Positions 31,755 to 36,100 of a stretch of 64,000 bases of DNA are shown one piece after another. The stretch spans positions 18,545-82,544 of the forward strand of contig JAFQOR010000010.1 of NCBI GenBank assembly GCA_017403125.1, in the 5' to 3' direction. The stretch's first letter is position 1; each line of letters begins with the position of its first letter. The DNA is from Alistipes sp. Lineage in GTDB: Bacteria; Bacteroidota; Bacteroidia; Bacteroidales; Rikenellaceae. The notes under the pieces were generated by a model. The model had not been told where the DNA came from and ran no database searches. It saw nothing but the letters and a program-made list of their open reading frames with translations. Position numbers and translations under genes: made by a program.

Positions 31755-33179
31755 CTACCACGACGACAACTCCGAGAAGTCGAGATAGCACTTATCGCCG
31801 CGTACCATAACCCTGTTGTCGCGAATCTTTGCATCCACATCTACATCAAGCCTACGGAGCAACTCCACCGTACCCTCCGGAACGACATACTCCATATCGC
31901 CGCCTCTGCTATCGAGTTTGGCGTGCTTGCTATACGCTATGAAGTAGAGAAACATAGGTTTCGAGCAGTATATCTCGCCGCCATCTGCCTCGCGTCGATA
32001 GACGCTCATAGGCATAGCGCCGACATTATCCATATAGTGACGACTTGCCAAAATGATATACGGCTCGTCGGAGTGCGAAATCTTCATAAAGTGTGCACAC
32101 TTTTCGGGCGATAGGTTCTCGCTACCGAGTATCTTCTCGTAGGCATTGCGCGTACCACTCGAAATAGATGTAGAGAAGACCCTTATCGAGTCGTTATGCT
32201 CCATAAACTCGCGTAACTCATCGACCGAAATTCTCTGCTCTTCGAGATTTTCACGACTGAAATGACGCCTTACGAGAGCATCATCCTTGGCATAGACAAC
32301 CAATGTATCGAGTCCCAAAGGCACCGACACGATACAGTCGTCGCCACTGCGCAGACCTATATCATACATATTCGCCGAGTCCGCCGAGATTGCCACCGTG
32401 AAATAACGTTTGTCATTGCCCTGTGCCTCCTCCACCAAGATAGGCCATGCCACACCGCTGGGCAGGGGTAGATAGTCGGCATTGGGCAGAGCCTTGACAT
32501 CCACGCCATACTCGTGCGCTATATACCTCTCGGCAGAGCCACCTCCGATGATTAACAGCTCTCGCTCGTGTCCTACACGTGCATCATTTGCGGGTCGCGA
32601 CAGCAACAGATACAACATCATGCCACATGCTGCCAACAACACCAATAGCACCATAGTCACCCACCTCACGCGACGCAACGTGGCGACCAGCGCACCTCGC
32701 TTCGACGAGGCTTGCGCGGCGCATATATCGTAAATCGTACGACGCAACACGCCCTTGACTTTGAGCACCAGGTCAAAGTCATTGACATAGTTTATGTAGT
32801 ACTCCTTGGTGAGCCCCTTAAATAGTCCATCGACATAGGCCTCCTCGGGGCTCTTGACCTCACCACGACGAAAGAAGACATAGATGTAGGGGTATCCACG
32901 CTCTTGGCGACACTTCATGGCATGCACATACTCCTGCTCGGTCTTCTCGCCAATGCAACCATCGAGCACAAAGAGCACTATATCAGCATCGTTGGATATA
33001 AAGTCGTCGAAATCGTCTTGAAGAATGGTCGATAGATTGTCATAAGAGGAGATATTGACACATATATCTTGCTTCATGCGAGCATACTCGGTAGTCATAT
33101 CATTTGCCAACGCCTTGATACTTTTGCGCTGCTCGTCAAGATTCTTTGCTCCGGCTACAAATATCGATATCCTCTTCAT
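31755..33179 (-). CDS. Membrane protein: cytoplasmic TIR-like domain plus extracytoplasmic binding-protein-like domain
   Basis: A 474-aa protein of unusual layout. Residues 1-150 look like a Rossmann-type TIR/DUF4062-like domain: strand ISIFVAG, a conserved-looking DADIVLFVLDG strand, a glutamate-rich helix start EKTEQEYVHAM and strand YPYIYVFFRR. A basic stretch and one transmembrane helix follow (about 173-193). Residues 207-435 resemble a periplasmic solute-binding domain of the phosphate/PstS type (LLIIGGGSAERYIA; a phosphate-loop-like SSGTRNAYEKIL at 340-351). No signal peptide, so the N-terminus is inside. Last gene of the sigma/RyR run. I infer sensing outside coupled to an enzyme or interaction domain inside. 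TIR assignment is tentative. Confidence 0.6.
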   Translation of the reverse strand: MKRISIFVAGAKNLDEQRKSIKALANDMTTEYARMKQDICVNISSYDNLSTILQDDFDDFISNDADIVLFVLDGCIGEKTEQEYVHAMKCRQERGYPYIYVFFRRGEVKSPEEAYVDGLFKGLTKEYYINYVNDFDLVLKVKGVLRRTIYDICAAQASSKRGALVATLRRVRWVTMVLLVLLAACGMMLYLLLSRPANDARVGHERELLIIGGGSAERYIAHEYGVDVKALPNADYLPLPSGVAWPILVEEAQGNDKRYFTVAISADSANMYDIGLRSGDDCIVSVPLGLDTLVVYAKDDALVRRHFSRENLEEQRISVDELREFMEHNDSIRVFSTSISSGTRNAYEKILGSENLSPEKCAHFMKISHSDEPYIILASRHYMDNVGAMPMSVYRREADGGEIYCSKPMFLYFIAYSKHAKLDSRGGDMEYVVPEGTVELLRRLDVDVDAKIRDNRVMVRGDKCYLDFSELSSW

Positions 33180-33286
33180 CTTCGAAACAATTAGCCGTTA
33201 AACGGCACATAACACTTCATCTGCAAATATCGCAAAAATTATCTATATATGCAATACCCACAGTACATATAGTGCTATTTGAGAGC

Positions 33287-33655
33287 CTATTGCCTCCTCG
33301 ATGCCTTCTCGGTAGCCTCTGCTGCCCAATCCAAATACATCGCAGCCTTCTCTTGCGACTTGACAGCATATCCTACATAGAGCTCATACTTCTCCATCGC
33401 ATCCTCCGCATATTTTGCATAGCTCTCTGCGCGGTCGATATTCCCATTTTTCGTATAGTATGCCACATCGCGCTGATACTCCTCGGCACGTTTCAGATAG
33501 TATTCCGCCTCGCGCATATAGCTATCTGCCTGTGTCTTATGATACTCTGCCTCGCGATAGTAGTCGCGCGCCTTGCGCATGTAGTAGTCGTCCTGCGCAT
33601 GTGCCACCGACCCAAGCGCCATGACGGTGATAAATAGCAACAAAAATCTCTTCAT
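33287..33655 (-). CDS. Secreted helical-repeat protein
   Basis: A 122-aa protein with a signal peptide (AHAQ end). The mature part is almost wholly alpha-helical, built from recurring units of the form YYxREAEYxxxxADSYMREAEYYLKRAEEY, rich in Tyr, Glu, Ala and Lys with a spacing of about 14 and 7 residues. It would form a long coiled or tetratricopeptide-like hairpin in the periplasm. Start chosen at MKRFLLLF, three codons inside the longest frame. It lies between the RyR gene and the TIR-like/binding-protein gene; it may bind the latter's outer domain. Function unknown. Confidence 0.7.
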   Translation of the reverse strand: MKRFLLLFITVMALGSVAHAQDDYYMRKARDYYREAEYHKTQADSYMREAEYYLKRAEEYQRDVAYYTKNGNIDRAESYAKYAEDAMEKYELYVGYAVKSQEKAAMYLDWAAEATEKASRRQ

Positions 33656-33700
33656 AGTACACATCTATTTAGGTTGTACGAAAAATCACATACCCCTCGC

Positions 33701-33997
33701 CTACTCCTTGCTAATTTTGTAGCCGAGGCTACGTATGAGTCCCAACGTAGCCATGGCTGTTTTGCGGTCGTAGAGGCGCTCCTCCTCCGGGAGCTCGCTA
33801 TATGGCACAAGACATGGATGCTGTTTCAGAGCATCGTTGCGTTCGGGACCATAGCTCCATCCCGCATCGAAACGTGCCTGTGCCCACTCGTCGTGCACCC
33901 TCTCGGCCATAACCTCCACCAAAGCCTTCAACTCCTCCGGCAGCTCGGCACCACCATCGTCGAGGTGCATAGGTCTATACTCCATGCTCTGTTTCAT
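33701..33997 (-). CDS. RyR-domain protein
   Basis: A 98-aa soluble protein that is little more than one ryanodine-receptor (RyR) repeat: the sequence from VHDEWAQARFDAGWSYGPER through HPCLVPYSELPEEERLYDR to LIRSLGYKI matches the family pattern. Bacterial RyR domains are usually found in signalling or conflict-related contexts, with unknown ligand. Start set at the ATG at 33997; a GTG lies two codons upstream. A second RyR copy forms the C-terminus of the adjacent upstream protein. Confidence 0.85.
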   Translation of the reverse strand: MKQSMEYRPMHLDDGGAELPEELKALVEVMAERVHDEWAQARFDAGWSYGPERNDALKQHPCLVPYSELPEEERLYDRKTAMATLGLIRSLGYKISKE

Positions 33998-34151
33998 ATC
34001 CACGAAAATCTAATCTTATACGGTTTTACCACGCCTACATATACAACGGTAAGAATCCCAACTCTATTGTGCTGTTTACGGGTATCGTCACCCAAATTTC
34101 TTCATATCGTAGTTAGGGTTAGTTTGTTATAAGCGTTATATAAACTCTATT

Positions 34152-35153
34152 TTACCTCTTTGTTTTGACTATTTCGTATCCGAGTTTATACATCAACTTA
34201 ATGGTCTGCATTGCCATCTCGCGATCATACTGCTTCTCGCTATCCTCAAGCTCGGCATAGGGCACCAAGTCGGGTGTCTGCTTCAACGTATCGTTGCGCT
34301 CCGGTCCGTATGTCCACCCCTCGGCACGGCGGCTCTCCGCCCATATCTCGTGTGCATTCTCGGCTATCGCCTCACGCAACTCGCAAATATCTGCCGAGAG
34401 CTCCACATCCGTAATATCTATCGGCTTGGGGTCATACTCCTTGTTATCGCGCGTGTTTGCCGCGACTATATAGTTCTCCGACACAGCCCACGCCTTTTGG
34501 AACTGCTGCAACGGATGCTTCACCGAATCGGCGATGTCGTTGGGGTCATAAAGCGTAACACTCTCCTCATCTATCGCAAGCACCACGACTACATGGTCGG
34601 GACGCTGACACTCCGTAGCCATAGCATCATATCCGGCAAGAAGATACTGATTGAGCGCAACAATAACATCGTCGCCCGCAGCCAAAGCTCGCTCGATATC
34701 GGCAACCGACGACTGATAGCGTCGTGTGACATAGAGTCCGTATCTCTCCAAATGACGCCCTACGTTATGCAGCGCCGTACCTTCGCACTTCTGCCAATTG
34801 TTATCTACCGCAGCTTCGAGTATAGCCTCCTCGTCGAAGCCGATACCACGCCTACGCATAACATACTTTTCGCACTCCACACAACACAAATTGCTGTTGT
34901 CGCACTTTGCCGCCAGAGCGTCGATGGGCAATATTCTCACGCGACGCGACGTGGCCGACATAGCGCCAAGCATATTGAGATTAACCTCATCATCCACCTT
35001 GCGGGCAACCTGCATAATCTCACGCAGCTCCTCGTCGTGACCAAGAGCCTCGAAGATGGCATCATACTCAGCCAATGTTGCCTCACCATCGAAATAGGCA
35101 GCCAGCACCTCGTCTGACACGCTAACCTTTTTACTACTCTTCTTCATCGTCAT
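34152..35153 (-). CDS. Anti-sigma-like / C39-like / RyR fusion protein
   Basis: A 333-aa protein with three parts. Residues about 12-55 (SDEVLAAYFDGEATLAEYDAI, then a helix) resemble the N-terminal domain of anti-sigma factors. Residues about 80-235 look like a C39/papain-like fold: a cysteine cluster NLCCVEC (Cys90 is 13 residues before RRRG, as in C39), GTALHNVGRHLERYGL, PDHVVVV (His187) and LYDPND (Asp203). Residues 245-331 are a RyR domain (AEGWTYGPERNDTLKQ). No membrane segment. The 5' end overlaps the sigma-factor gene by 20 bases. I infer a soluble sensor that holds the sigma factor; protease activity is unproven. Confidence 0.7.
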   Translation of the reverse strand: MTMKKSSKKVSVSDEVLAAYFDGEATLAEYDAIFEALGHDEELREIMQVARKVDDEVNLNMLGAMSATSRRVRILPIDALAAKCDNSNLCCVECEKYVMRRRGIGFDEEAILEAAVDNNWQKCEGTALHNVGRHLERYGLYVTRRYQSSVADIERALAAGDDVIVALNQYLLAGYDAMATECQRPDHVVVVLAIDEESVTLYDPNDIADSVKHPLQQFQKAWAVSENYIVAANTRDNKEYDPKPIDITDVELSADICELREAIAENAHEIWAESRRAEGWTYGPERNDTLKQTPDLVPYAELEDSEKQYDREMAMQTIKLMYKLGYEIVKTKR

Positions 35154-35706
35154 CTACTTTTTTAGCCTCTTTAAGTACTATGTCGGTAAGTTCCGTAATA
35201 GCACGTTTCTTAATATTATACAAATTACCAACCGTCACACCCAACTCTTTTGCGACATCCGCAGGGTCGGCATCCTGCAACACCAAACGCCTTAACGCAT
35301 AGACCGACCTCTTGTTTGGCATAAGACTAAACGCCCGCTCTAAATCCATTGCAGCATCGTTGCGACTCTCCTCGTCACAAATCTCGTCAGCTGTCGGTTT
35401 CCTATATTGAGGCTCGGAAGACCTATTTTCTATCATCCGACCACGTTTTGCTATAAAAAATCTGATCGCAACAATCTTCAACCACTGAAACAGAGAGCTT
35501 CTACCCTCATATTGTCGCAGACGTCGCGCATCATCCTCCAAGAGGTAGATATACAATTCGCTCACAAACTCATCATAATCCACCTCGTAGGAGAATACAT
35601 TGTTGATAATACTCTTGAAGAGCGGACGACAATCCTCAAAGAAGAATTTTTGCGTCACCTCCCCATCACGAGCAATCAATCTCTCTACAATCTCTTTTGC
35701 TTCCAT
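35134..35706 (-). CDS. ECF-type RNA polymerase sigma factor
   Basis: A 190-aa sigma-70 family protein. Region 2 contains VDYDEFVSELYIYLLEDD and the -10-recognition segment SLFQWLKIVAIRFFIAKRG; region 4 contains RRLVLQDADPADVAKELGVTVGNLYNIKKRAITEL, a helix-turn-helix. It starts the run of five same-strand genes and overlaps the anti-sigma-like fusion by 20 bases, the typical layout of an ECF sigma/anti-sigma pair. A -7 box for the housekeeping sigma lies at 35802-35809; auto-regulation is possible. The stimulus is unknown. Confidence 0.88.
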   Translation of the reverse strand: MEAKEIVERLIARDGEVTQKFFFEDCRPLFKSIINNVFSYEVDYDEFVSELYIYLLEDDARRLRQYEGRSSLFQWLKIVAIRFFIAKRGRMIENRSSEPQYRKPTADEICDEESRNDAAMDLERAFSLMPNKRSVYALRRLVLQDADPADVAKELGVTVGNLYNIKKRAITELTDIVLKEAKKVDDDEEE

Positions 35707-35801: not shown

Positions 35802-35809
35802 CAAATGTA
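35802..35809 (-). promoter_or_regulatory. -7 box of the sigma/RyR operon
   Basis: TACATTTG on the minus strand; a -33 TTG is not clear. The leader would be about 90 bases. Confidence 0.4.
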
Positions 35810-36011: not shown

Positions 36012-36095
36012 GCCCAGATGGCGGAATCGGTAGACGCGCTGGTCTCAAACACCAGTAGGTTCACCCCTGTGCCGGTTCGACCCCGGCTCTGGGTA
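36012..36095 (+). tRNA. tRNA-Leu (anticodon CAA)
   Basis: An 84-base class II tRNA: acceptor GCCCAGA with TCTGGGT, anticodon stem CTGGT/ACCAG with loop CTCAAAC (anticodon CAA), a long variable arm, and T-arm GCCGG-TTCGACC-CCGGC. Discriminator A; CCA not encoded. Reads UUG. Confidence 0.93.
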
Positions 36096-36100
36096 CGAGG

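Follow-up and report, generated by a model that had tools for sequence, protein, structure and literature searches.

Genes of the locus

We analysed a stretch of 64,000 nucleotides from an Alistipes sp. genome (assembly GCA_017403125.1, contig JAFQOR010000010.1), hereafter the window, and focused on a locus at positions 31755-35706. Five genes lie there on the minus strand, in the order sigma factor, fusion protein, stand-alone ryanodine receptor (RyR) domain protein, small helical protein and TIR-like membrane protein. A first-pass annotation made from the letters alone had delineated the same five genes; all were found where it had placed them and all have positive codon-usage scores.

The first gene (35134..35706) encodes a sigma-70 family RNA polymerase sigma factor of 190 amino acids (aa), similar to those of the extracytoplasmic function (ECF) type. 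It passes the cut-off of the NCBIfam family TIGR02937 (E 1.6e-11, 44.1 bits for a cut-off of 42.9), in agreement with its earlier identification. It overlaps by 20 bases (35134-35153) the second gene (34152..35153), which encodes a fusion protein of 333 aa with an anti-sigma-like N-terminus, a C39-like cysteine peptidase region and an RyR domain. The first-pass annotation had named these three parts, and they fared differently. The RyR domain (residues 240-329, 34167..34436) is matched by PF02026 with an E-value of 3.8e-32. The C39-like region (around residues 85-225, 34479..34901) matches PF13529 below the 24-bit cut-off (E 2.2e-4, 22.2 bits) and is upheld by its family: PF13529 was detected in seven of the nine fusion-family members scanned (best E 4.6e-6), one relative scored above the cut-off (28.3 bits), and the peptidase triad is kept (Cys in 23 of 23 members, His in 22 with one gap, Asp in 20 with two gaps and one Asn). 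Profile A4 matches the C39-like peptidase structure 3erv (E 0.004); this structure, RseA and MucA were the sole PDB matches listed for the profile. The anti-sigma module is putative and barely detectable, its profile matches having E-values of about 0.8; it would span around residues 1-70 (34944..35153) and adjoin the sigma gene. The zf-HC2 profile was found in one of the nine members scanned (E 0.013). A structure predicted from the single fusion sequence was unusable (mean predicted local distance difference test score 34.4).

The stand-alone RyR protein (100 aa, 33701..34003) matches PF02026 with an E-value of 1.7e-28. Both RyR proteins of the window pass the curated cut-off of this family, which confirms the two RyR domains in neighbouring genes that had been proposed.

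The last gene (31755..33179) encodes a membrane protein of 474 aa that alignments and profile comparison suggest is TIR-like, more precisely DUF4062-like. Its N-terminal TIR-like domain (around residues 1-148, 32736..33179) has an invariant Glu83 (9 of 9 rows of alignment A5), whose equivalence to a catalytic residue is suggested by alignment only. The protein has nothing TIR-related in Pfam, NCBIfam or PADLOC at E-values up to 1, and no direct Pfam match to PF13271. The domain is distantly linked to DUF4062 through large proteins, in which PF13271 was detected in four of the six scanned (E 8.7e-5 to 0.02, all below the cut-off). The TIR/DUF4062-like domain of the first-pass annotation is thus recovered through intermediate sequences and by no direct family match. 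The outer solute-binding domain it placed in the same protein fared worse, as no tool matched it: a hydrophobic segment and an SGTR motif are all that is visible. The C-terminal part beyond this segment (31758..32567) is perhaps an extracytoplasmic binding domain, judging from the sequence and alignment A1; it has no family or structure match.

RyR-bearing loci of relatives

RyR domains were found in 35 of 150 genomes of relatives and in 5 of 395 genomes of the class, the window's own genome included in both, and in 44 of 180 genomes of the genus. In the window's genome (1.84 Mb in 31 contigs, 88% complete) the RyR matches are the two locus proteins only. We called genes in the fetched surroundings with a codon-usage script and counted 58 RyR-bearing loci in Bacteroidia. 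This count merges L151 with L152 and L160 with L161 (loci are given by L numbers), and omits L078, L108 and L109, whose RyR matches are short or interrupted and gave no RyR gene, as well as L106 and L116-L120, whose surroundings had been retrieved because of the fusion or TIR-like families. The fetched set does not include two places with weak RyR matches (G112:C180, G387:C29). Channel-like RCK-RyR proteins occur at 39 of the 58 loci, TIR or TIR-like genes at 23, either of them at 48, and fusions at 21; three loci (L083, L084, L098) have neither channel, TIR or TIR-like gene nor fusion. The window's locus represents one form of a recurrent cassette centred on RyR. The core of this cassette is an RyR gene, a TIR or TIR-like gene and, in relatives, a channel. 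The five genes do not form a constant set, contrary to the supposition made earlier: the helical gene is rare, sigma/C39 pairs occur without RyR, and TIR-like/RyR pairs occur without the sigma pair. TIR-like and sigma genes are distributed separately, which partly counts against the first-pass proposal, yet they meet repeatedly at RyR loci.

A sigma gene, as the neighbour of the fusion, is present at 19 of the 21 fusion loci; stand-alone RyR genes are present at 14, channel-like genes at 11 and TIR or TIR-like genes at 9. The closest of these loci, L100 (58% identity of the fusion), has a genuine TIR gene between fusion and RyR and lacks the TIR-like gene; like the window, it has the helical gene and is flanked by Fe-ADH. 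An independent set of 16 further genomes of the genus shows fuller islands. L154 reads channel, sigma, fusion, TIR-like, M48 peptidase, 85-aa protein, zinc-ribbon and RyR, and L168 reads channel, sigma, fusion, TIR, M48 and TIR, onward to RyR. The gene directly after the fusion encodes a TIR protein in L100, L161 and L168, and a TIR-like protein in L154.

Across the order, 16 of 364 genomes (own genome included) encode the presumed sigma-binding and C39 part, with hits beyond the family. Eight new strong places were fetched, three with RyR in the fusion (L183-L185) and five without (L186-L190). The three RyR fusions, from other families, all adjoin a sigma gene and are accompanied by a channel and a TIR gene (L183), by M48 and TIR genes (L184), or by a channel-like RyR protein (L185); in L190, which lacks RyR, a TIR gene adjoins the sigma/C39 pair. 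Since several sigma/C39 loci lack RyR, the pair is a regulatory cassette of wider occurrence that gained RyR mainly where there are other RyR genes. We also observed sigma genes with a C39 anti-sigma-like protein devoid of RyR beside Hsp70 or dynamin-like genes (L106, L116, L117). No relative of the fusion was found in viral contigs, and the seven plasmid records each have either the C39 part or the RyR part only.

Full-length relatives of the TIR-like protein number three in the 150 genomes, all from Alistipes metagenome-assembled genomes of water buffalo and yak gut. Each lies directly beside an RyR gene and two have a channel in front. In the genus, 7 of the 13 strong TIR-like places are inside RyR loci. 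The window's genome has no TIR_2 match among the matches listed. In L091 and L094, channel, TIR-like and RyR genes form a block between two genes. The empty site L144 has homologues of both flanks of the L091 block, with a tRNA-Lys gene beyond and 216 bases in place of the block; among the six Fe-ADH sites fetched, L144 alone shares both flanks. Outside the genus, a TIR gene directly precedes a TrkA_N-RyR gene in L123:2977-8024 (TrkA_N E 6.3e-11, RyR E 3.8e-11) and in L121:6474-9678 (TrkA_N E 4.1e-15, RyR E 2.2e-10), and these pairs are possibly minimal two-gene systems.

The channel-like proteins are two-helix RCK proteins with a C-terminal RyR domain (e.g., L104:4458-7115 and L082:3863-5980). 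A D[PAS]G[NSY] motif lies near the start of 16 of 22 RCK-RyR proteins, vs. none of 78 other large proteins, and available excerpts on the plant channel CASTOR give its filter as AD(265)S(A)GNHA (PMC6697748). The best PDB profile matches of the RCK-RyR proteins are CASTOR and DMI1 (E 0.033-0.041), and a Slo-like RCK domain is weakly matched in Pfam. These proteins are likely RyR-gated bacterial channels. The channel is absent from the fetched surroundings of the window; a search of its genome gave no match either, an empty answer that is weakly informative.

Excerpts of a 2026 preprint describe phage RyR-domain proteins that bind or cleave cyclic ADP-ribose signals (PMC13232231). In one of them, RyDEP, His75 and Asp117 are catalytic, Trp78 braces the adenine and His100 contacts the phosphates. 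The stand-alone RyR protein of the window keeps all four residues at exact spacing, and stand-alone domains generally do so (His75, Trp78 and Asp117 in 50 of 50, His100 in 47). The same holds for the RyR domains of channel-like proteins (His75 in 38 of 39, the other three in 39 of 39). The fusion of the window has an incomplete set, with Thr at the His100 position. Fusion RyR domains retain His75 and Trp78 (21 of 21 each), and their pocket seems changed because His100 is kept in only 3 of 21 (16 have Thr, 2 Asn) and Asp117 in 17 of 21. RyR parts matched function-unknown families in PHROGs. Two scaffolds from human faeces that are filed as phage and carry no annotation (MT836850.1, MT837259.1; L170) encode RyR proteins 53-55% identical to those of the window.

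A candidate signalling cassette and its rivals

In our favoured reading, to which we give about an even chance, the locus would be a nucleotide-signalling cassette of the Thoeris kind whose output is transcriptional. We chose it because it explains why sigma, C39-RyR, stand-alone RyR, and TIR or TIR-like genes occur together. The membrane TIR-like protein would sense an envelope or intracellular event and use its invariant Glu to convert NAD+ into a signal derived from ADP-ribose. The residues of the fusion RyR domain suggest that it could bind this signal, and its lack of the His100 equivalent points to a reader, or to a changed ligand, rather than to an efficient hydrolase. We infer that binding would activate or uncover the C39-like region, so that the protein is cut or its N-terminal anti-sigma module is otherwise released; the sigma factor, once freed, would transcribe the response. 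The stand-alone RyR protein, by the precedent of phage RyDEP, may hydrolyse or soak up the signal and thereby reset the circuit. In relatives, the RyR-tipped two-helix RCK protein, mostly with a CASTOR-like filter motif, would be a likely second output, at the membrane.

Of the signalling or defence circuit suggested by the first-pass annotation, the signalling part gains from the clustering of RyR and TIR genes, from the recurrent sigma/fusion pair and from the TIR-like genes beside RyR. Among the TIR matches listed in RyR-positive genomes, 13 of 75 are within 5 kb of an RyR gene, for an expectation of 0.47 if TIR genes were placed at random, and 11 of 42 RyR loci have such a TIR gene within this distance. 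One could suppose instead that RyR reads another adenine nucleotide or metabolite, in which case the locus would be a stress or nutrient regulator and the TIR-like protein a scaffold or sensor without enzymatic activity. According to the same excerpts (PMC13232231), the R12 domains of animal RyR have adenine-containing molecules as ligands; moreover, the TIR-like protein has an additional C-terminal domain with no assigned role, and the locus is surrounded by ordinary genes. We nevertheless regard this alternative as unlikely, given that genuine TIR genes repeatedly replace or accompany the TIR-like gene and that 50 stand-alone RyR domains have a RyDEP-type pocket.

The transcriptional output of the favoured cassette would depend on the pairing of sigma factor and fusion. 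The two genes are -22 to +30 bases apart in all 14 loci measured, including three where the fusion lacks RyR, and a sigma gene is also found beside the C39 protein in eight of nine loci where that protein has no RyR domain. The divergences of the two proteins are correlated (r 0.885 over 23 pairs, with none of 2000 permutations as high), to which shared ancestry contributes. These observations, with the sigma gene adjoining the fusion at 19 of 21 loci, argue against the fusion being mainly an effector, i.e., an RyR-gated cysteine peptidase that cuts cell proteins, with the sigma factor merely setting its expression. The conserved C39 triad would suit such an effector, as would the M48 and PrsW peptidase genes that recur in RyR islands and the precedent of one Thoeris type, in which a caspase-like effector cuts cell proteins. 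On balance we consider the effector improbable.

It seems to us very unlikely that the clustering itself is accidental, with independent regulatory and defence genes gathered in a mobile hot spot near Fe-ADH. The RyR cassettes of the window, L100, L091 and L094 do all lie directly upstream of Fe-ADH, and the helical and TIR-like genes are patchy. Yet one type of RyR domain is common to fusion, channel and stand-alone genes, the association is seen in several families and at sites other than Fe-ADH, and all three full-length relatives of the TIR-like protein adjoin RyR.

Several observations weigh against the Thoeris-like cassette. The clustering of RyR and TIR genes could partly reflect defence islands. 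Twelve of the 21 fusion loci have no TIR or TIR-like gene in the fetched stretch, and four of them (L101, L102, L163, L165) have no channel, TIR or stand-alone RyR gene; in the genus, 6 of the 13 strong and all 12 weaker TIR-like places are outside RyR loci. Direct profile comparisons of the TIR-like domain are weak (E 0.031, HH 1.6% for TIR; E 0.0028, HH 10.9% for DUF4062) and its PDB profile matches include no TIR structure. The anti-sigma matches, over residues 11-71 of profile A4, are also weak (RseA E 0.79, MucA E 0.81). In the fusions, Asn replaces Asp117 in 4 of 21 cases, and a single origin of their RyR domains is unsupported, as their common node also takes in 36 stand-alone domains. 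The literature consulted, in the portions available, reports no ligand binding by bacterial host-encoded RyR domains. Among eight further phage homologues, six bound cyclic ADP-ribose signals and those assayed did not degrade them (excerpts of PMC13232231), which also provides a precedent for binding without cleavage by the fusion. Finally, the region 5' of the sigma gene has, by eye, a box (TACATTTG, 35802..35809, minus strand) that fits TAnnTTTG, which we take to be the vegetative -7 motif of Bacteroidota. The start of the operon thus fits a vegetative promoter and autoregulation by the sigma factor is not evident; a search by eye for a promoter motif shared across loci gave nothing beyond this vegetative-type box.

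The sigma/fusion pairs of the four loci mentioned above are maybe decaying or repurposed. They lie near one conserved gene (ffh-like by eye), and three of the four have Asn at Asp117.

Relation to known systems and neighbouring genes

We found no description of an RyR-centred cassette in the literature, the systematic TIR survey of Yirmiya 2025 apart, which agrees with the earlier impression that no such system had been described. A PADLOC scan of the window proteins gave no match, and among ten proteins of related loci it matched only one TIR protein and a DUF4062-NACHT-TPR protein. The analogy with Thoeris is that genes with a domain of a cyclic-ADP-ribose-binding type adjoin a TIR or TIR-like gene, and that an NAD-derived second messenger is presumed. 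Unlike Thoeris, where the reader is SLOG or Macro, the locus would use RyR, by precedent; its output would pass through a sigma/anti-sigma pair, joined in relatives by an RCK channel, and its TIR-like domain is DUF4062-like. The phage RyDEP and RyR sponges, as described in the excerpts (PMC13232231), share PF02026 and the four pocket residues with the stand-alone protein, whereas RyR is here host-encoded, in a putative operon with a presumed signal maker, and exists also in fusion and channel forms.

DUF4062 NADases include Swarozyc, according to excerpts of another paper (PMC13174449); the TIR-like domain appears distantly related to them and has a conserved Glu, but the similarity is indirect, and the protein of the locus is membrane-bound and beside RyR genes. 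As in ECF sigma/anti-sigma pairs, the sigma gene is directly followed by an overlapping gene whose product has a short helical N-terminus; unlike in these pairs, the partner is soluble and has a C39-like peptidase region and an RyR domain. The likeness to the CASTOR/POLLUX RCK channels, as far as the excerpts go (PMC6697748), concerns relatives only and consists of the D-x-G-N-like filter motif and the PDB matches given above; the channels of relatives differ in being bacterial and RyR-tipped, and were not found in the window's genome.

A broader proposal, which we hold tentatively and think rather doubtful, is that Bacteroidia use their RyR domains generally to perceive ADP-ribose signals made by TIR proteins, the outputs being a CASTOR-like channel and a release of sigma factor by a peptidase-anti-sigma fusion, both gated by RyR. 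In bacteria, plants and animals alike, TIR proteins produce immune signals, and a connection between ryanodine receptors and cyclic ADP-ribose has long been drawn in animals. If the proposal were true, TIR signalling would control bacterial transcription and ion flux, and a link between cyclic ADP-ribose and RyR would exist in bacteria beside the one proposed in animals. More modestly, if these RyR domains of bacteria recognise what TIR proteins produce, the locus would be a compact test system for this link. Transcription, and in relatives probably ion flux, would then join the known outputs of TIR signalling, and the carriage of RyR-domain proteins by phages would be explained.

Other genes recur at these loci. 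A trio of M48 peptidase, 85-aa protein and zinc-ribbon protein lies 3' of sigma/fusion or sigma/C39 genes in L154:7087-8756, L159, L161, L166, L168, L184 and L188, and genes for PrsW-like membrane proteases are near RyR in L074, L079, L084, L085, L168 and L152. Between RyR and the channel-like gene, L075:8125-11535 encodes a DUF4062-NACHT-TPR protein and L150:4215-7631 one that looks similar by eye. L118:5610-7115, with no RyR in the fetched stretch, joins a TIR domain, a hydrophobic stretch and a TIR-like domain in one protein.

In the window, the small helical protein (33287..33664) starts, by eye, like a signal peptide and is an accessory gene product with no family in Pfam, NCBIfam, PADLOC or PHROGs; relatives were recognised in just two other loci, L100 and L189. 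A tRNA-Leu gene (36012-36096) sits between panD and the sigma gene.

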